Below are positions 1 through 8,875 of a stretch of DNA of 64,000 nt, in pieces. A program made the position numbers and the translations under genes. The notes beneath the pieces are model-generated. The model was given only the letters and a program-made list of their open reading frames with translations. It did not search any database and was not told where the DNA came from. Origin of the DNA: Rhizobiales bacterium GAS188 (lineage in GTDB: Bacteria; Pseudomonadota; Alphaproteobacteria; Rhizobiales; Beijerinckiaceae); contig FNSS01000001.1 of the NCBI GenBank assembly GCA_900104855.1, forward strand, positions 7,139,001 through 7,203,000, read 5' to 3'. Every line of letters starts with the position of its first letter. The first letter of the stretch is position 1.

Positions 1-601
1 CCAAGACCACCATCCCGGTCGCGAGCGGATACCAGGTCGCCACGAACAGCCCGCTGTCATCGTTGCAGTTCGCGGCGTAGAATGTCGCCGCGATGCCGCT
101 CGCCGCGAGGCCGGCCACGGCTCCCGCGAGTCCCGGCCGCGTCGGGGCGCCTCGACGCAAGGCGATCAGCAGGCAGGCAAGAGGGCCGCTCGCCAGGAGC
201 GGGATCACCGTCAGGCAGACCTTCGAATTCGATCCGACGAGGCTCGGCGCCCAGCTCGAGGCGGGGGTGGCGAGCAATTCGGCGACGACGCCGAGCGCCA
301 GCAGCACGGGGACAACTGCCAGCGCCCAGCCCCAGAGATCGGCTGGCGCCCCGGGCCGCGCCAGCCGCAAGACGAGGCCCGTCGCCGTGACCGCGAGGCT
401 GAGGGTGACCACGAATTTCAAGGGGAAGCGCAGGGTCTCGAGCGCCTGCCCGATATCCGGGCGAAAGCCGATCCCGAGGAAAAACAGCGTGCCTGCGACG
501 ATCGAGCCGACGACGACCGCGAGCCCCACGCTGCGTTCGAGCCTCCAGGGCGCGACAGCCTGATCCTGGACAAGGGCGTTGATCAGGTGGTTCGTTCTCA
601 C
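1..601 (-). CDS. nrsF: NrsF-type (DUF1109) membrane anti-sigma factor, partial
   Basis: This is the 3'-truncated gene of an integral-membrane anti-sigma factor of the NrsF/DUF1109 family, which holds its ECF sigma factor at the inner membrane until metal or oxidative stress. About 200 residues are visible and the gene runs off the window. The N-terminus (RTNHLINAL) is family-like, followed by several hydrophobic segments and the typical RRGAPT and FVATWYPLA stretches. Cysteines are seen at residues 129, 143 and 179. The 129/179 pair has the same 50-residue spacing as the two sensing cysteines I recall for Caulobacter NrsF (131 and 181). The GTG start overlaps the sigma factor stop (GTGA), so the two are translationally coupled. 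This frame is not the longest open frame here; it was chosen by homology. Confidence 0.85.
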   Translation of the reverse strand, partial: MRTNHLINALVQDQAVAPWRLERSVGLAVVVGSIVAGTLFFLGIGFRPDIGQALETLRFPLKFVVTLSLAVTATGLVLRLARPGAPADLWGWALAVVPVLLALGVVAELLATPASSWAPSLVGSNSKVCLTVIPLLASGPLACLLIALRRGAPTRPGLAGAVAGLAASGIAATFYAANCNDDSGLFVATWYPLATGMVVL

Positions 602-1155
602 TCGGCATCACCCCGGTAAAGGCAGGCGAGAGCCTTCAAGGCTCGGTGGAGCGCCACGCGCACTGCCCCCTCGCTCATCTTGAGCCGCTCCGCCGTCTCG
701 CGGATCGAGGCTCCATCCAGGGCCACCGAGCGCACGATATCGCGCTGCTGGTCGCGCAGCTTCGCCAGCAGGCGATCGAGATCGTGCCGGCCGAGACCGT
801 CGCTCGCCTCCTCGGCCGCGAGGCTGTCGATGACGGTCTCGATCGGGGTCTCGGCGCGATGGCCGCGACGACGCAGGGCGTCGATGCTCTTGTTGCGCGC
901 GATCGCCGCGATCCAGGGGCCGATCGGTCTCGACCGGTCCCAGGTGTGGCGCTTGAGGTGGATCGCCAGGAGCACCTCCTGGACGACATCCTCGGCATCG
1001 CCGAGCGCCAGGCCGAGGCGCGCGAAACGCCGGCGCGACATGGCGCGCAAGGACGCGGCGACCGAATCCAGGAAGCGACGGTAGGCAACCGTGTCGCCCG
1101 AGATCGCGGCACGCATCCATATAGCCCACTCCTCTTCACGCGCCGGGACATTCAC
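598..1155 (-). CDS. sigF: ECF RNA polymerase sigma factor, SigF-like
   Basis: This 185-residue ECF sigma factor has region 2 at about 25-97 (DAEDVVQE, then RHTWD and IGPWIAAIARNKSIDALRRR) and region 4 at about 125-176 ending in a helix-turn-helix (SEGAVRVALHRALKAL). It is the kind paired with NrsF, whose gene overlaps its 3' end. In Caulobacter, SigF drives bufferin-type operons under metal stress, and here such an operon lies divergently upstream. A promoter-like element at 1170-1195 places the likely transcript start only about 7-10 nt before the GTG codon, so the mRNA may be nearly leaderless. An internal ATG at residue 14 is the alternative start. Confidence 0.9.
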   Translation of the reverse strand: MNVPAREEEWAIWMRAAISGDTVAYRRFLDSVAASLRAMSRRRFARLGLALGDAEDVVQEVLLAIHLKRHTWDRSRPIGPWIAAIARNKSIDALRRRGHRAETPIETVIDSLAAEEASDGLGRHDLDRLLAKLRDQQRDIVRSVALDGASIRETAERLKMSEGAVRVALHRALKALACLYRGDAE

Positions 1156-1169
1156 GCGCTACCCAATCC

Positions 1170-1195
1170 TTCGCTGGTGACCATCGAATTATTAC
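1170..1195 (-). promoter_or_regulatory. SigF-type promoter of the sigma factor gene
   Basis: Read on the minus strand, GTAATA (1195-1190) is separated by exactly 16 nt from CGAA (1173-1170). The same -35/spacing/-10 combination occurs in the opposite direction before bufA1. It resembles the GTAACC-N16-CGAA element I recall for Caulobacter SigF. The likely meaning is autoregulation. Confidence 0.7.
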
Positions 1196-1275
1196 GCGCC
1201 TCATCGAGATTTATTGTCGCCCGGCGGCGATCACGAAAGCGTGTTGCCCTGGAGAGGGATAATCGGGCGAGATAT

Positions 1276-1301
1276 GTAATACCAAGGCTGCGGCCTTCGA
1301 A
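1276..1301 (+). promoter_or_regulatory. SigF-type promoter of the buf operon
   Basis: GTAATA (1276-1281), 16 nt, then CGAA (1298-1301). It is identical in -35, spacer length and -10 to the divergent element at 1170-1195. The predicted start near 1308 gives a leader of about 42 nt to the bufA1 ATG. Confidence 0.72.
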
Positions 1302-1310
1302 GAGGTTGTC

Positions 1311-1330
1311 GTGAGCCATTGGAGGCTCAC
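1311..1330 (+). other. 5'-UTR hairpin of the buf operon mRNA
   Basis: GTGAGCC (1311-1317) and GGCTCAC (1324-1330) form a perfect 7-bp stem with a 6-nt loop. It starts within a few nucleotides of the predicted transcript 5' end and lies just before the ribosome binding site (AAGGAGGA, about 1338-1345). It could stabilise the mRNA or modulate translation of the precursor. Confidence 0.5.
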
Positions 1331-1349
1331 CCACCCAAGGAGGAGTACT

Positions 1350-1619
1350 ATGGTTCGTCGTTCCGTCAATCTCGCACTTGCAGGCTCGCTTGCCTCCGCG
1401 CTCGCGCTGATCGCCGTGCCCGCCTCGGCGCAAGATGCCAGCAAGGAAAAGTGCTACGGTGTCGCGCTGAAGGGCGAAAACGACTGTGCGGCCGGCAAGC
1501 ATGCCTGCGCCCACATGTCCAAGGTGAGCTATGACAAGGCCTCCTTCAAGCTCGTCCCGACGGGCACCTGCACCGGCATCAAGACGCCGCATGGCCACGG
1601 CAAGCTGACGCCGGTTTGA
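1350..1619 (+). CDS. bufA1: Bufferin-type precursor peptide 1 (DUF2282), His-enriched
   Basis: The 89-residue product has a Sec signal peptide (residues 1-27, ending ASA before Gln28) and a short mature domain with four cysteines at 35, 46, 53 and 74 in the BufA pattern (EKCYG, NDCAAG, CAH, GTC). In characterised bufferins an MNIO enzyme converts such cysteines to thiooxazole-type groups that bind copper. Start: ATG 1350 follows a strong AAGGAGGA, while the upstream in-frame codon at 1311 lies in the leader hairpin. Compared with the next gene it is one residue shorter between cysteines 2 and 3 and carries extra histidines (51, 55, 81, 83, including HGHG near the C-terminus). That suggests a different metal preference (inference). 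Confidence 0.9.
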
Positions 1620-1666
1620 ACTGCCGAGCGTTCGCCGCGAGACGGAAAACAACGCTGGAGTCTTCC

Positions 1667-1948
1667 ATGTTCAAGACCACGACGGTCATGCTGGCGGCAT
1701 CGATCGCGGCCGCGCTGTCCGCGTCGGGCAACACGGCGTCAGCCGCCGACGATGCCAAGGAAAAATGCTACGGCATCGCCTTGAAGGGCCAGAATGATTG
1801 CGCGGCCGGCCCGGGAACGACCTGCGCCGCCACCTCCAAGATCGACTACCAGGGCAACTCCTGGAAGCTCGTCCCGAAAGGGACCTGCACCACCATGACG
1901 ACCCCCTTCGGGTCCGGGTCTCTCGTGCCGATCAAGCGACCGGCCTGA
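1667..1948 (+). CDS. bufA2: Bufferin-type precursor peptide 2 (DUF2282)
   Basis: This is a second precursor, 93 residues, with a signal peptide (1-26, ending ASA) and four cysteines at 34, 45, 53 and 74 (EKCYG, NDCAAG, TTCAA, GTC). It matches the family consensus better than its upstream paralogue ([18 protein letters not shown]). The two peptides align almost without gaps, so a local duplication is likely. The start at ATG 1667 is set by the signal peptide; an in-frame codon at 1616 overlaps the bufA1 stop. The gene lies 47 nt downstream of bufA1 and is followed by a perfect hairpin before bufB. Confidence 0.9.
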
Positions 1949-1952
1949 TATC

Positions 1953-1978
1953 CGGCGACGCGGCTCGCCGCGTCGCCG
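1953..1978 (+). other. Strong intercistronic hairpin between bufA2 and bufB
   Basis: CGGCGACGCGG (1953-1963) and its exact complement (1968-1978) form an 11-bp GC-rich stem with a CTCG tetraloop. It begins 5 nt after the bufA2 stop codon. No U-run follows, so it is not a classical intrinsic terminator. Its position fits partial attenuation or protection of the precursor mRNA 3' end. Confidence 0.75.
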
Positions 1979-1994
1979 TTCACTCGATTTCCTC

Positions 1995-2864
1995 GTGAGC
2001 ATTCACATGACGACATCGTTGCAGCTTCCCCCGCAGGCGGGTGTCGGCTTCAAGCCGGAGCATTTCTTCGCCATCGATGCTGCGCCACAGCCGATCGGCT
2101 TCTTCGAGATCCACGCCGAGAACTATATGGGTGAAGGCGGCCCGCCGCATGCGCAGCTGACCAGGTTGCGCCAGGATTATGCGCTCTCGATCCACGGCGT
2201 CGGCCTGTCCATCGGTTCCATGCAGCCGCTCGACCAGGATCACCTCATGCGGCTGCGTGGCTTGTGCGACCGCTACCAGCCGGAAAGCTTTTCCGAGCAT
2301 CTCGCCTGGTCGAGCCATGACGGCATCTTCCTCAATGATTTGCTCCCGCTCCCCTACACGGAGGAGACGCTGGCGCGCGTCGCGGAGCATGTCGACCAGG
2401 TCCAGAACGCCCTCAAGCGGCGGCTGCTCCTCGAAAACCCGTCCACCTATCTGCTGTTTGAGGACAGCACCATCCCGGAAGTCGAGTTCCTGGCGGAGGT
2501 GACGCGCCGCAGCGGCTGCGGCCTGCTTCTCGACGTCAACAATGTCTTCGTTGCCGCGACCAATCACCGGCTCGATCCGCGCGACTATCTCGCCTCCTTC
2601 CCGTTCGCTCATGTCGGGGAGATCCATCTCAGCGGCCATGCCGCGACGATCGATGAATTGGGCGCGCAACTGCTCATCGATTCGCATGACACGCCCGTCA
2701 CGGATCCGGTCTGGGCCCTCTATGAGGAGGTGATCGCGAAAACCGGGCCGGTGGCGAGCCTGGTGGAATGGGACAATGACGTTCCCGAATGGCCGGTGCT
2801 CCGGAGAGAAGCCGTTGCGGCGCAGGCCATCCTCGATCGCGCGCGCCACCGGGTCGCAGCTTGA
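1995..2864 (+). CDS. bufB: MNIO-family peptide-modifying enzyme (DUF692)
   Basis: This is a multinuclear non-haem iron-dependent oxidative enzyme of the DUF692 TIM-barrel family (MbnB/BufB type), expected to modify cysteines of the two upstream precursors in the cytoplasm. Likely metal ligands, numbered from the GTG at 1995, are H67 (SIHGVG), E101/H102 (SEHLAW), E147 (LLENPS), D180 (LLDVNN), H211/H215 (EIHLSGH), H231 and E258 (LVEWDND). All are present, so it looks active. The length (289, or 285 from ATG 2007) is normal. ATG 2007 is a plausible alternative start with GTGAG upstream. The gene is second in function after the precursors and is followed by bufC 36 nt later. Confidence 0.92.
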
Positions 2865-2900
2865 GGGCTCCACTCACGATTCTGGCCCAAGGTCTTGCTC

Positions 2901-3665
2901 ATGTCGACCGACATCCAATCCCGCTTTGCCGCCGCCCTGCTCGATAGCGGGCGGGCCGTCCCGTCAGGCCTCACCTCCTGGTCGGGCGCCTTGCCGGTGC
3001 GACACTTCGCGATCTACCGCAACAATGTCGTCACCGGCCTCGTCCGCGCGCTGGCGGCACGTTTCCCAGCGACCTCGAAGATCGTCGGTGAGGAGTTCTT
3101 CGCCGCCATGGCGCAAGCCTTCATCGAGCGGCATCCGCCGCGATCCCCCATGCTGCTCGCCTACGGCGAGGGCTTCGCCGATTTCGTCGAGAACTTCGAG
3201 CCGGCGGCCGAGCTCGTCTATCTGCCGGATGTGATCCGCCTCGAGGCGGCACGGGCTCGCGCCTATCACGCAAGCGACAAGGAGCCGCTCGAGCCGGGAG
3301 AATTGGCGAAGGTGCAGCCGGAGCGGCTCGGCGAGCTGATCATCGAGCTGCAGCCTTCGGCTGCGATCCTGCGTTCGCGCCATCCCGTGATCACCATCTG
3401 GGCGATGAATTCCGGCGAGGCCGAGCTCGGGCCGATCGATGATTGGAGGGGCGAGGATGCGCTGGTGGTGCGCCCCCAGCAGCTGGTGACGGTTCGCCGC
3501 CTGCCGAGCGGCGGGGCGGCATTCCTGCAAAGTCTCGGCGCCGGCATGCCGCTCTCGCGCGCCGTCGAGACCGCAACCGCCGAGACGGCCGATTTCGACC
3601 TTGCGGCCAATCTCGCGGGGATTCTCGACGCCGGCGTCGTCGTCGGCCTTCACCTCTCCGCTTGA
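2901..3665 (+). CDS. bufC: BufC, DUF2063 partner of the MNIO enzyme
   Basis: The 254-residue product has the N-terminal DUF2063 domain (about 5-95, with the typical HFAIYRNNV and FPATSKIVGEEFF motifs) and a C-terminal domain ending in a winged-helix-like segment. In characterised RiPP systems DUF2063 proteins are obligate partners of DUF692 enzymes and are thought to present the precursor peptide. The family's older label as a DNA-binding domain is not supported by this context. ATG 2901 is preferred over TTG 2895 and has AAGG upstream. The gene lies between bufB and a DoxX gene on the same strand. Confidence 0.9.
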   Translation: MSTDIQSRFAAALLDSGRAVPSGLTSWSGALPVRHFAIYRNNVVTGLVRALAARFPATSKIVGEEFFAAMAQAFIERHPPRSPMLLAYGEGFADFVENFEPAAELVYLPDVIRLEAARARAYHASDKEPLEPGELAKVQPERLGELIIELQPSAAILRSRHPVITIWAMNSGEAELGPIDDWRGEDALVVRPQQLVTVRRLPSGGAAFLQSLGAGMPLSRAVETATAETADFDLAANLAGILDAGVVVGLHLSA

Positions 3666-3677
3666 GGGAACGGGTCC

Positions 3678-4157
3678 ATGCACGAGGAGGCCGCCATCCT
3701 GGAGCCGGTCGATGCCCGAGGCCCTATCGGCCTCGTCGCCGCGATCTTGCATCTCTTCGACCACATCCCGTATTCGCTCGTCGCCTTCGCGGCCCGCCTG
3801 TTCCCGGCCGCCGTCTTCTGGCAATCGGGCGAGACCAAGATGGAAGGCTGGCATCTGTCGGACAATGCGGTCTATTTGTTCCGCGAGGAATACAAGCTGC
3901 CGCTGATCGATCCCGCCATCGCGGCGCATCTTGCGGCATTCGCCGAGCACGCCTTCCCGTTCCTCCTGGTGATAGGCCTTGCGAGCCGCTTTGCTGCGCT
4001 CGCCCTGCTGTGCATGACGCTGGTCATCGAGATCTTCGTCTATCCCGACGCATGGCCGACACACGGCGTCTGGGCGACCTGTTTCCTCATCGTCATGGCG
4101 CGCGGCCCCGGCGCCCTTTCGCTCGATCACCTGATCGCGCGGCGCCACGCGCCGTGA
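3678..4157 (+). CDS. DoxX-family membrane protein of the buf operon
   Basis: A 159-residue DoxX/DoxD-like inner-membrane protein with about four hydrophobic segments (roughly 20-45, 84-100, 103-122 and 128-145). DoxX proteins are a regular fourth member of DUF2282-DUF692-DUF2063 operons, sometimes called BufD, and probably handle redox chemistry or transport at the membrane. The exact reaction is unknown. It starts 12 nt after bufC, so it is co-transcribed, and it is the last gene of the operon. Confidence 0.85.
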   Translation: MHEEAAILEPVDARGPIGLVAAILHLFDHIPYSLVAFAARLFPAAVFWQSGETKMEGWHLSDNAVYLFREEYKLPLIDPAIAAHLAAFAEHAFPFLLVIGLASRFAALALLCMTLVIEIFVYPDAWPTHGVWATCFLIVMARGPGALSLDHLIARRHAP

Positions 4158-4276
4158 GCTCGGCGGCTCGCGCCGACTAGTGTCATGCAAATCTTGGTGG
4201 CGGCGGGCAAGGCGGGAGCATCGACGGGCATTCACGTGAACGTGACCTCGGCGAGGCGCATTCGCCGCTATTGGCT

Positions 4277-4302
4277 GTAACGCCATCGGTCGCGGCAACG
4301 AA
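4277..4302 (+). promoter_or_regulatory. Third SigF-type promoter, before the YHS gene
   Basis: GTAACG (4277-4282), exactly 16 nt, then CGAA (4299-4302). It matches the two elements at 1170-1195 and 1276-1301 in spacing and -10. The predicted leader to ATG 4451 is about 140 nt. The rest of the 4158-4450 gap shows no other clear signal. Confidence 0.65.
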
Positions 4303-4450
4303 ATCACCCATGGAGATGAGCTCGTTTCGATCACTGTTTCCGTTGTCGACGGCAAAGAAATTGACGACAACTTCTCTGTATTCATCCGTATTCAACGGGA
4401 TCACGGCCGCGGCTGCTCTCCAGATCAAAGCTCGAAAGGGAGATGATGCC

Positions 4451-4936
4451 ATGTTGAACAAGCGTGCCCTCATTGCGCTCGCGGCCGCCATCGCGGTCAC
4501 CGGAGGGATCACCGCAGCGATGCCTGCACTTGCGGCCGGTCCGCAGATCAACGCCACGATCACCGGCCTCGCCTTGCGCGGCTATGATCCGGTCGCCTAT
4601 TTCACGGACGGCAAGCCGGTGCTCGGCGACTTCACCATCACGGCCCAATTTGAGGGCGCGACCTATCGCTTCGCCTCCGAGGACCATAAGGCCCTCTTCG
4701 TGAAGGAGCCTGGCAAATACCTGCCGCAATTCGGCGGCTTCTGCGCCTTCGGCACCGCCCAGGGCTACAAGGTCGACGGCGATCCGAATGTCTGGAAAAT
4801 CGTCGACAACAAGCTCTACCTCAACCTCGCTCCGCCCGTCGCCGCGCGCTGGAACCAGGACATGGGCGGCTTTATCAAGACCGCAAACGAGAAATGGACG
4901 GACCTCAAGGACAAGGCGCCGAGCGAGCTGCAATAG
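4451..4936 (+). CDS. Secreted YHS-domain protein
   Basis: The 161-residue product has a Sec signal peptide (about 1-29) followed by a YHS-type domain (about 38-115: LALRGYDPVAYF, YRFASEDHKALF, PGKYLPQFGGFCAFG). YHS domains occur in heavy-metal ATPases and related proteins and are linked to metal binding. One cysteine (98) lies in the family's conserved position. ATG 4451 has AAGGGAG upstream and begins the signal peptide; the longer open frame from 4271 covers the promoter and is not translated. The SigF-type element upstream places it in the same regulon as the buf operon. Its ligand is unknown. Confidence 0.85.
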   Translation: MLNKRALIALAAAIAVTGGITAAMPALAAGPQINATITGLALRGYDPVAYFTDGKPVLGDFTITAQFEGATYRFASEDHKALFVKEPGKYLPQFGGFCAFGTAQGYKVDGDPNVWKIVDNKLYLNLAPPVAARWNQDMGGFIKTANEKWTDLKDKAPSELQ

Positions 4937-6711: not shown

Positions 6712-7033
6712 CGCGTCCTCCGCGATTTTGTTTCCGGTTTGGTCGCCGGTATCGTTTGTCCCTGGATGAATTCCGGAGCGGCCTGGACGATAGCAGGCGG
6801 CGGGGTCACCCGGAAGCCGAAGACGCAATGCGATCGGAAGCTTGCCGACAACTCTGGTTTCAGGCGTATAGTGCCGAGACGCAACTTCACGAAGCCAGCG
6901 TCTTGGCCGACGAGCGCGTCGAGCCTTGTAGAAGGCCTGCGTAAGGCGGAGCTGCCGATCGTCGGCAAAAGTGACGCGCCAACGACAACAAGGCCTGCAT
7001 CATCGCGCTGAACAACGTCGGGAGGATGCTCAG
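6712..7033. other. Divergent intergenic region, acyl-CoA ligase / ggt
   Basis: About 320 nt between divergent starts. A possible -10 (TATAGT, 6867-6872) with TTGCCG at 6842-6847 could serve the gamma-glutamyltransferase gene, but the 19-nt spacing is poor. No hairpin, repeat or RNA gene was recognised. Confidence 0.3.
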
Positions 7034-8875
7034 ATGACGATTTCCGCGAGAGCCCTGTTCTGCATCGCGCTGTTGGCCCTGGCATTGCGACCAACCATCG
7101 GCCAGGCCCAGACCACGCCCCTGCTTTCGCCCTGCAAAGCCGATCCGAAACCGCCCGCCTGCGACGCCATGCGTGGTGACCGCGCCGATGGCTGGCGCGC
7201 CCAAACGCGCGCCGAGGTGATGGCGCAGCATGGCATGGTCACCACCAGCCAGCCACTCGCCTCGCAAGCCGGGCTGCAGATGTTGATGAAGGGCGGCAAC
7301 GCCATCGACGCCGCGGTCGCCGCTGCCGCCGTTCTCAATGTCGTCGAGCCGATGAATACCGGCCTCGCGGGCGATCTGTTCGCCATCATCTACATCGCCA
7401 AGGAGAACAAGCTCTATACGCTGAATGCCAGCGGCATGGCGCCGACCGGCGCGACGCTCGAGCATCTCAACGCGCTCGGCTATCGGGCGGACCCGGCGAA
7501 TTTCGGCCCCGGCTCCGGCATGCCGACCTACGGCATCCTGCCGGTCACCGTGCCGGGCTCGGCCTGGGGATGGGAGGAAGTCCTCAAGCGCTTCGGCAAG
7601 ATGGGCTTCAAGGAGGCGCTGGCGCCCGCCATCGACTATGCGGAGAACGGCTTTCCGGTCTCGCAGCGCATCGCCAATGACTGGAAGCTGCCCAATGCCT
7701 TGCCGCTGCAGGGCTGCTGCACGGCGCTCGACCCGGATTCGGTGAAGACCTGGTATATCGACGGCAAGCAGCCGGTCGCCGGCCAGATCTTCCGCAATCC
7801 CGACCTCGCCAAGACCTTGCGCCTGTTGCAGCGGCATGGGCGCGACGCCTTCTACAAAGGCGAGATCGCCAAGGCGATCGTGGCGAAGTCGACTGCGCTC
7901 GGCGGCACGCTGACGCTCGAGGACCTCGCCAACTACAAGGGCGAATGGGTCGAGGCGGCCGCGAGCGATTATCACGGCTTCAACCTCAACGAGCTGCCCC
8001 CGCCCTCGCAGGCCTGGGGCACCAATGTGATGCTCAATATCCTCGAGGTCTGCACGCCCAAATGGGCACAAGGGCGGACACTCGCGAGCCTTGGACCTAG
8101 GAACCCGAAATACTGGCACTTCCTGGTCGAGGCCAAGAAGCTCGCCTATGCGGATCTGTTTCGTTACAACGCCGACCCGAATTTCGTGAAGGTCCCGCTC
8201 GCCATGCTGCTCTCGAAGGCGCATGCCGAGGAGCTCTGCGGCAAGGTCGATCCCGACCATGCCTCCCCGACCGGGCTCGCTTCAACCGCGAGCGCGAACG
8301 GCGACACGATCGTGCTCTCGACCGCGGATGCCGAGGGCAACATGGTGTCATGGGTCAACAGCAATTATGCCGGCTTCGGCTCCGGCCTGACCGTGCCGGG
8401 ATATGGCTTCATCCTGCACAATCGCGGCGCGCTGTTCACGCTCGATGCGAAGAGCCCGAACCTGATCGCGCCGCATAAGCGGCCCTTCAACACGCTCTCG
8501 GCGGGCTTCGTCATGCGCGACAACAAGCCGCTGATGTCGATCCTGCTGATGGGCGGCGACATGCAGGCGCAAGGTCACGCCCAGACGCTGGTGAGCATCC
8601 TCGATCTCGGCGCCAACCTGCAGGCAGCGACCGACATGGCGCGCTTCCACCACGCCCAGGTTCAAAACAGGCTCGAGCTCGAATCGAACCTGTTCGACCT
8701 CGTCGGCAAGGATCTCGCGGCCATGGGCCATAACGTCGTCTCGATCAATGGCGCGCCGGTCGGCGGCTTCCAGTCGATCCTGTTCACGCCGCTTCCGGCG
8801 GGCGCGTCGCGCCTGCACGGCTTCTACCGGGCCGGTTCCGACCACAGGAAGGATGGCGAGGCGGTGGGATGGTAG
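7034..8875 (+). CDS. ggt: Periplasmic gamma-glutamyltransferase
   Basis: A 613-residue Ntn-hydrolase that transfers or hydrolyses gamma-glutamyl groups of glutathione. It has a signal peptide (about 1-23) and the large-subunit motifs GGNAIDAAVAAAAVLNVVEP and GPGSGMPTYG. Autocleavage should occur before Thr425 (GDTIVLSTADAEGNMVSW), where the small subunit begins. The small-subunit pocket motif lies at NRGALF. ATG 7034 follows GGAGG at 7021, and the upstream frame is not needed. The gene is alone and converges on thiL across a repeat-rich spacer. Confidence 0.9.
   Translation: MTISARALFCIALLALALRPTIGQAQTTPLLSPCKADPKPPACDAMRGDRADGWRAQTRAEVMAQHGMVTTSQPLASQAGLQMLMKGGNAIDAAVAAAAVLNVVEPMNTGLAGDLFAIIYIAKENKLYTLNASGMAPTGATLEHLNALGYRADPANFGPGSGMPTYGILPVTVPGSAWGWEEVLKRFGKMGFKEALAPAIDYAENGFPVSQRIANDWKLPNALPLQGCCTALDPDSVKTWYIDGKQPVAGQIFRNPDLAKTLRLLQRHGRDAFYKGEIAKAIVAKSTALGGTLTLEDLANYKGEWVEAAASDYHGFNLNELPPPSQAWGTNVMLNILEVCTPKWAQGRTLASLGPRNPKYWHFLVEAKKLAYADLFRYNADPNFVKVPLAMLLSKAHAEELCGKVDPDHASPTGLASTASANGDTIVLSTADAEGNMVSWVNSNYAGFGSGLTVPGYGFILHNRGALFTLDAKSPNLIAPHKRPFNTLSAGFVMRDNKPLMSILLMGGDMQAQGHAQTLVSILDLGANLQAATDMARFHHAQVQNRLELESNLFDLVGKDLAAMGHNVVSINGAPVGGFQSILFTPLPAGASRLHGFYRAGSDHRKDGEAVGW

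Follow-up and report, generated by a model that had tools for sequence, protein, structure and literature searches.

A 64,000-base window of the genome of Rhizobiales bacterium GAS188 (contig FNSS01000001.1, positions 7,139,001 to 7,203,000) was analysed. It carries a Buf1-type bufferin locus that is probably run by its own extracytoplasmic function (ECF) sigma factor and NrsF anti-sigma factor, in a regulon that includes a gene for a YHS protein. Membership of the YHS gene in this sigma-F-type bufferin regulon is well supported. Without the YHS gene this is an ordinary Buf1 bufferin locus of a kind already published, tandem precursors included; the new part is the YHS gene, by virtue of its sigma-F-type promoter site together with its recurrent linkage to bufferin genes. 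An earlier note on this DNA had proposed a compact regulon making two modified peptides under sigma/anti-sigma control, with the YHS protein as a possible extra component. The common promoter sites and the recurring linkage support the two-precursor regulon and raise the YHS protein from a possible to a likely component. The response to metal, the modification of the peptides and their export are predicted.

Bufferins are a recently described and widespread class of copper-chelating peptides with a published four-gene core. If a fifth gene recurs under the control of this sigma factor, the YHS family would gain a physiological setting, and the role of the YHS protein could be tested directly by a single deletion under copper stress.

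Sigma-F-type promoter sites in the window

The Caulobacter sigma-F site is GTAACC-N16-CGAA; very similar copies were experimentally located before sigF, CC2907 and CC3254, and the site before CC2748 came from a search permitting two substitutions (PMC3511200). A relaxed form of this site, GTAAYN followed by N16 or N17 and CGAA, was used as the search pattern. The window contained three matches, all with the N16 spacing and one ahead of each unit of the locus. GTAATA-N16-CGAA was found at 1170..1195 on the reverse strand, 14 bp from the start of the open reading frame (ORF) of the sigma factor, and again at 1276..1301 on the forward strand, 48 bp from the ATG of the first precursor gene. The third site, GTAACG-N16-CGAA, lies at 4277..4302 on the forward strand, 148 bp from the ATG of the YHS gene at 4451. 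The three sites differ from the Caulobacter consensus by one to two of the first six bases. Shuffling of the window (n = 100) gave a mean of 0.22 sites, and no shuffled window reached three. The motif is not enriched across the host genome, where 24 N16 sites (21 outside the locus) were counted against 67 for a reversed-pattern control, so that the case rests on the clustering of three sites in 4.4 kb (Poisson 2.6e-7). Six of the 24 sites lie outside any ORF of at least 80 amino acids, and one of these six belongs to a second sigma-NrsF pair; the ORFs following the other intergenic sites, judged by eye only, included no clear target.

The YHS gene was placed at 4451..4936 on the forward strand and encodes 161 amino acids. 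Its product scored 145 bits against the NCBIfam model YHS_seleno_dom (NF041384, cut-off 70) and 22.7 bits against Pfam YHS (PF04945), below the cut-off of 30.3. The longest ORF starts at 4271 and spans the promoter-like site, and the true start is therefore most likely the ATG at 4451.

Linkage of YHS and bufferin genes in other genomes

The family of the host was sampled with 397 genomes, host included, of which 118 contained a DUF2282 gene and 140 a YHS match. The two genes lie within about 5 kb of each other in at least five genomes (listings read by eye), which are also the five best-scoring for YHS among the 140. In the window the YHS gene lies downstream of the buf genes and is preceded by a site of its own. 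In a genome of the same genus (G106) it follows doxX by about 50 bp and ends the buf operon, without a site of its own; in two further genomes (G002 and G224) it runs opposite to the buf genes and again has a site, and in G216 it stands directly before the sigma-nrsF pair, on the same strand and with a site ahead of it. An exact N16 site was present within 700 bp at four of the five linked YHS loci, compared with none of the 25 unlinked loci fetched (Fisher 0.0002). Near-sites at the unlinked loci comprised an N15 variant in L075 and one-mismatch forms in L065 and L068.

A sample of 385 Alphaproteobacteria genomes gave 135 with DUF2282 and 111 with a YHS match at 1e-25, using five linked YHS proteins as queries, a choice that may favour linked ones. 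For each gene 150 places were listed, covering 128 genomes for DUF2282 and 105 for YHS. Among these listed matches 55 genomes had both genes, and in 18 of them (host included) the two were within 6 kb, against a chance expectation of about 0.3 with genomes taken as 4 Mb. At 13 of the 17 loci other than the window, bufA follows YHS in the same orientation at a distance of 12-200 bp, and 12 of the 13 continue with bufB and bufC, neither of which was detected in L238. Two of the remaining loci have the genes on opposite strands, and the last two (L250 and L251) are weak cases, 4.4 kb apart and with no bufB detected. The existing annotation of a Thalassobaculum plasmid shows, in a single row, YHS, DUF2282, DUF692, DNA-binding domain protein, DoxX, sigma factor and NrsF; the DNA-binding domain protein is a bufC match, and a site is present before YHS.

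The best 80 of at least 531 YHS relatives, 13 of them with a short flank on one side, were also compared. bufA was found within 8 kb of YHS in 22 of the 80, including Erythrobacter, Porphyrobacter, Sphingorhabdus, Sandarakinorhabdus, Bosea, Chitinibacter, Deefgea, Colwellia and a Lysobacteraceae genome. A site precedes YHS in five of the 80, namely L108 (the G224 genes), L114 (the G216 genes), L112 and the Sphingobium loci L159 and L161. sigF was detected in the flank of four loci, three of which have a site before YHS; the fourth, L155, is without bufA. The two Sphingobium loci are near-identical and showed only a weak bufC-like match at the flank edge; in their genomes, a stretch of about 17 kb contains two bufferin operons and sigF, and another six exact sites.

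Taking all sets together and excluding the window, 41 linked loci were obtained. YHS precedes bufA in the same orientation in 32 of them, lies on the opposite strand in six and is downstream in three. The gap, measured from the longest ORF starts, was below 100 bp in 17 of the 32 and 10 bp or less in one. A tree of 146 YHS proteins was used to follow the linked label, which was counted on 145 rows with L126 left out, L208 taken as linked and L250 and L251 as unlinked. The label required 13 changes, compared with a mean of 35 and a lowest value of 29 in 300 shuffles. The linked proteins are thus clustered but do not form one clade, indicating that the association of YHS with bufferin genes arose or was lost several times. 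The gene order of the locus recurs in relatives and is not a chance pattern; YHS is found beside bufferin genes in a minority of bufferin genomes.

The YHS protein

The N-terminus of the YHS protein is signal-peptide-like when judged by eye. To our knowledge, no function has been tested for the YHS (seleno)protein family NF041384; what sets the present member apart within the family is its association with bufferin genes and with a sigma-F-type site. The protein contains a single cysteine, C98, within the sequence GGFCA. This residue is invariant across 73 aligned YHS sequences, an invariance that is partly built in because one of the two search patterns required that cysteine. A GxU selenocysteine form of the family is tabulated in a review, and G96-F97-C98 of the present protein fits this pattern (PMC13188914).

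AlphaFold gave a mean predicted local distance difference test score (pLDDT) of 42.8 with five sequences and 88.8 with 73 sequences. Foldseek found no match to the model at an E value of 0.001 or better. The best two matches were ciliary proteins (1.8e-3 and 0.03), and the same two proteins match YHS by sequence at 0.0012 and 0.014, so that no function can be assigned from them.

A second YHS gene, 40% identical, is present in the host genome (G000:C1:1065393-1065758, L258). It lies away from the bufferin genes, with no sigma-F-type site listed nearby. The idea that it encodes a selenoprotein was rejected, because its reading frame is an ordinary one with cysteine at the corresponding alignment position.

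Core genes of the locus

All genes named in the earlier note (ECF sigma factor, NrsF, two DUF2282 precursors, DUF692, DUF2063, DoxX and YHS) were recovered with Pfam or NCBIfam scores. The span of 598-4936 given there holds for the other genes; nrsF, at 601..1 on the reverse strand, lies outside it and crosses the edge of the window. The sigma factor gene (sigF-like) is at 598..1155 on the reverse strand and matched Sigma70_r2 (40.2 bits, cut-off 24), Sigma70_r4_2 (49.6, cut-off 25.7) and the NCBIfam equivalog PRK12512 (264.2, cut-off 198). Its stop codon overlaps the start codon of nrsF, which extends 38 bp past the left edge of the window and is complete in the genome (212 amino acids, L028:11963-12601). 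NrsF scored 169.6 bits against Pfam NrsF (cut-off 26.8) and fell below the cut-off of the narrow NCBIfam equivalog AntiSigF_NrsF (86.8 against 300, for a window copy without the last residues).

The bufferin operon is on the forward strand, with gaps of 47, 46, 36 and 12 bp between its genes. The first precursor gene, bufA1 (1350..1619, 89 amino acids, Pfam DUF2282 72.4 bits), encodes exactly four cysteines at positions 35, 46, 53 and 74; the second, bufA2 (1667..1948, 93 amino acids, 89.1 bits, cut-off 22.4 for both), likewise has exactly four, at 34, 45, 53 and 74. The two products are 53-61% identical and have N-termini that look by eye like signal peptides. Both fell below the cut-off of NCBIfam Cu_RiPP_BufA2 (22.6 and 22.0 against 60). 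The MNIO (DUF692) maturase gene bufB (1995..2864) matched Pfam MbnB_TglH_ChrH (352.4 bits, cut-off 25) and NCBIfam MNIO_BufB (382.8, cut-off 310), and its product matches PDB 3bww (E 2.6e-38). It is followed by bufC (2901..3665), which encodes the DUF2063 partner protein (Pfam 93.3 bits, cut-off 27.2; NCBIfam HvfC 40.8, below the cut-off of 142) and for which no matching PDB chain was found at E 0.001, and by doxX (3678..4157), which encodes a DoxX family membrane protein (Pfam 61.4 bits, cut-off 23.6; NCBIfam HvfX 47.7, below the cut-off of 80). A gap of 293 bp separates doxX from the YHS gene. The locus thus has the four-cysteine DUF2282 precursors and the adjoining MNIO, DUF2063 and DoxX genes of a Buf1 locus, and, as in a sigma-F/NrsF system, an ECF sigma gene followed by an NrsF gene with promoter sites before the targets. 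In the host genome (9.09 Mb, three contigs) the single MNIO match and both DUF2282 matches fall within this locus.

Proposed mechanism and alternative explanations

Envelope metal stress would cause NrsF to release the sigma factor, which would then transcribe three units: sigma-nrsF, bufA1-bufA2-bufB-bufC-doxX and YHS. BufB and BufC would turn the inner cysteines of both precursors into thiooxazoles, and the exported bufferin peptides would hold copper in the periplasm. The YHS protein would be exported as well, its single cysteine serving beside the bufferins as a thiol-redox partner or a copper-holding site. Its role would be that of a periplasmic single-cysteine protein acting on copper or on thiol redox, the two possibilities being about equally likely. 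Genes near linked YHS loci include thioredoxin in Colwellia (L171) and a gammaproteobacterium (L170), glutaredoxin and DUF302 in Chitinibacter (L123), and redoxin, Sulf_transp, thioredoxin and DsbD-like genes in Sphingobium (L265). These redox-type neighbours and the GxU form favour thiol redox or a thiol-bound metal, without choosing between them. A more specific version is offered tentatively: bufferins may not act alone in these bacteria, and YHS may be their dedicated periplasmic partner, whose single, selenocysteine-replaceable cysteine hands copper on to the bufferins or keeps nearby thiols reduced, the thioredoxin, glutaredoxin and redoxin neighbours being part of the same relay.

The alternative that survives best, and to which we give appreciable though lesser credence, is that YHS serves more generally in envelope stress or sulphur redox under parallel sigma-F-type control, sharing only the stress with the bufferins. 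In the set of 80 YHS relatives the majority are not near bufA, the Sphingobium YHS region is rich in sulphur and redox genes as listed above, and YedY (CC2748) is a Caulobacter sigma-F target (PMC3511200), all of which would fit such a gene. Against this, YHS precedes bufA in the same orientation at 32 of the 41 linked loci, less than 100 bp away at 17 of these, which suggests matched production; at nine of the 32, no bufB was detected near YHS.

That YHS is an unrelated neighbour, its site present by chance and the linkage elsewhere due to general gene shuffling, is unlikely. Such a view could appeal to the 58 of 80 close relatives without bufA within 8 kb and to the 21 of 24 genome sites that lie elsewhere, but it does not account for the linkage in 18 class genomes among the matches listed against about 0.3 chance pairs, for the site at four of five linked against none of 25 unlinked family loci, or for the same coupling of site, YHS and bufferin genes in Thalassobaculum and Sphingobium. 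Least probable of all, and very improbable in our estimate, is that YHS is a client of BufB and BufC with its single cysteine oxidised like those of the bufferins: the protein is secreted-looking, its one cysteine is invariant in the alignment, and PMC12452194 suggests whole proteins as possible substrates of MNIO enzymes and mentions preliminary results in which the signal peptide is part of MNIO recognition, but the cysteine is kept in YHS proteins from genomes with no DUF2282 gene found, 13 of the 24 genomes compared (several of the 13 being metagenome bins, and one of the two search patterns having included the cysteine), the GxU selenocysteine form points to a free thiol or selenol (PMC13188914), and the confidently predicted fold suggests a folded domain and not a short peptide.

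Several observations weigh against YHS as a member of the bufferin regulon. YHS lies near DUF2282 in a minority of genomes, with at least five of 118 family DUF2282 genomes linked, at least 18 of 135 in the class sample (within 6 kb), and four of 106 in the family of Thalassovita (within 6 kb, one of them tight, as read from listings). The 58 of 80 relatives without bufA within 8 kb point the same way, subject to the short flanks in 13 of the 80. The published Caulobacter sigma-F targets include no YHS gene; sigF there is not strongly auto-regulated, and survival in dichromate or cadmium was no lower in strains without sigF or without one or the other MNIO gene (PMC3511200). Among the 22 loci of the set of 80 that have bufA nearby, 19 showed no sigF, and none of these 19 has a site; YHS must therefore be under different control in other lineages, perhaps often as the first gene of the buf operon. 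At one locus, L252, sigF and bufferin genes are present, yet no exact site precedes YHS. Within the set of 80 the site was found at three of 22 loci with bufA within 8 kb and at two of 58 without (Fisher p = 0.12), the latter two being the Sphingobium loci.

Co-occurrence of YHS and DUF2282 without linkage was also considered. In the well-supported YHS clade around the window (19 rows), 18 of 19 genomes have DUF2282, compared with two of 14 genomes examined outside it and a class base of 135 of 385. Among genomes of the Thalassovita family, DUF2282 was present in all nine with a YHS match of E 1e-50 or better (p ~0.05) and in 106 of 149 overall. Given this base rate the co-occurrence was judged mostly taxonomic and was set aside as support.

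Relation to known systems

The locus resembles the Caulobacter sigma-F/NrsF regulon (CC3252-CC3257 and CC2907-CC2905), where sigF-nrsF adjoins a DUF2282-DUF692-DUF2063-DoxX operon and sigma-F-type promoters lie ahead of both units; the precedent invoked in the earlier note is correct in this respect (PMC3511200). It differs from Caulobacter in its two tandem precursors and in a YHS gene preceded by a site of its own; the target table for Caulobacter lists no YHS gene but does include YedY (PMC3511200). Substitution of C131 and C181 in Caulobacter NrsF changed basal expression of the regulon (PMC3511200). The cysteines of the present NrsF are C129, C143 and C179, of which C129 and C179 are close in number to the Caulobacter pair, a likeness of position only, in unaligned sequences.

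The published Buf1 clusters share the core genes, the four-cysteine DUF2282 precursors, the sigma/NrsF pair and the tandem precursors (PMC12452194). That survey counted unrelated genes only if they were 10 bp or less from a relevant gene, a rule which suggests that regulon members with their own promoter or a longer gap can be missed, as only one of the 32 upstream same-strand YHS loci has a gap within this limit. Captophorins such as fontiphorin also combine an MNIO with a partner protein, and DUF2282 precursors are counted within the captophorin landscape; the main product of the fontiphorin paper, unlike the present ones, derives from an EGKCG-repeat precursor (PMC12668002). The term 'YHS' does not occur in the main texts of the MNIO papers PMC12452194 and PMC12668002. 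In the openly licensed literature, supplements aside, no paper was found that joins the YHS domain with MNIO/DUF692 or an ECF sigma factor, or that treats metal binding by a YHS domain in the bacterial periplasm, and YHS domain-containing proteins together with copper led only to selenoprotein reviews.

Other observations

The search for RNA families gave no matches, the sigma-70 promoter and terminator scans showed no excess over shuffles, and the repeat scan likewise gave nothing useful. Past the gene that follows, an ORF at 6971-8875 of the window (forward strand) looks by eye like a gamma-glutamyltransferase, no family search having been run on it; a glutathione-related ORF close to a thiol-related locus may be chance.

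The second sigma-NrsF pair of the host genome (G000:C1, L257:6154-14734) has its own sigma-F-type site and a sigma factor 41% identical to that of the window over 180 amino acids. It diverges from genes for YtkA, an outer-membrane efflux protein, a CusB-like protein and an RND pump, before which no sigma-F-type site was found. Given this setting, sigma-F-type control may also reach metal efflux.

Six Chitinibacteraceae-type loci (L123, L124, L127, L129, L138 and L144) carry YHS, bufA and doxX, with no bufB found within the flank; in L123 genes for a carboxymuconolactone decarboxylase, glutaredoxin and DUF302 stand among them. A plasmid collection yielded 241 records with a DUF2282 match, among them 60 from Escherichia, 17 from Klebsiella and eight from Salmonella, and 104 of the 241 were typed as conjugative. 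A Sphingobium stretch of about 17 kb (L265, 100-17081) holds seven exact sigma-F-type sites together with two bufferin operons, sigF-nrsF, YHS, and redoxin, Sulf_transp, ABC transporter, thioredoxin and DsbD-like genes, and is possibly a regulon island.

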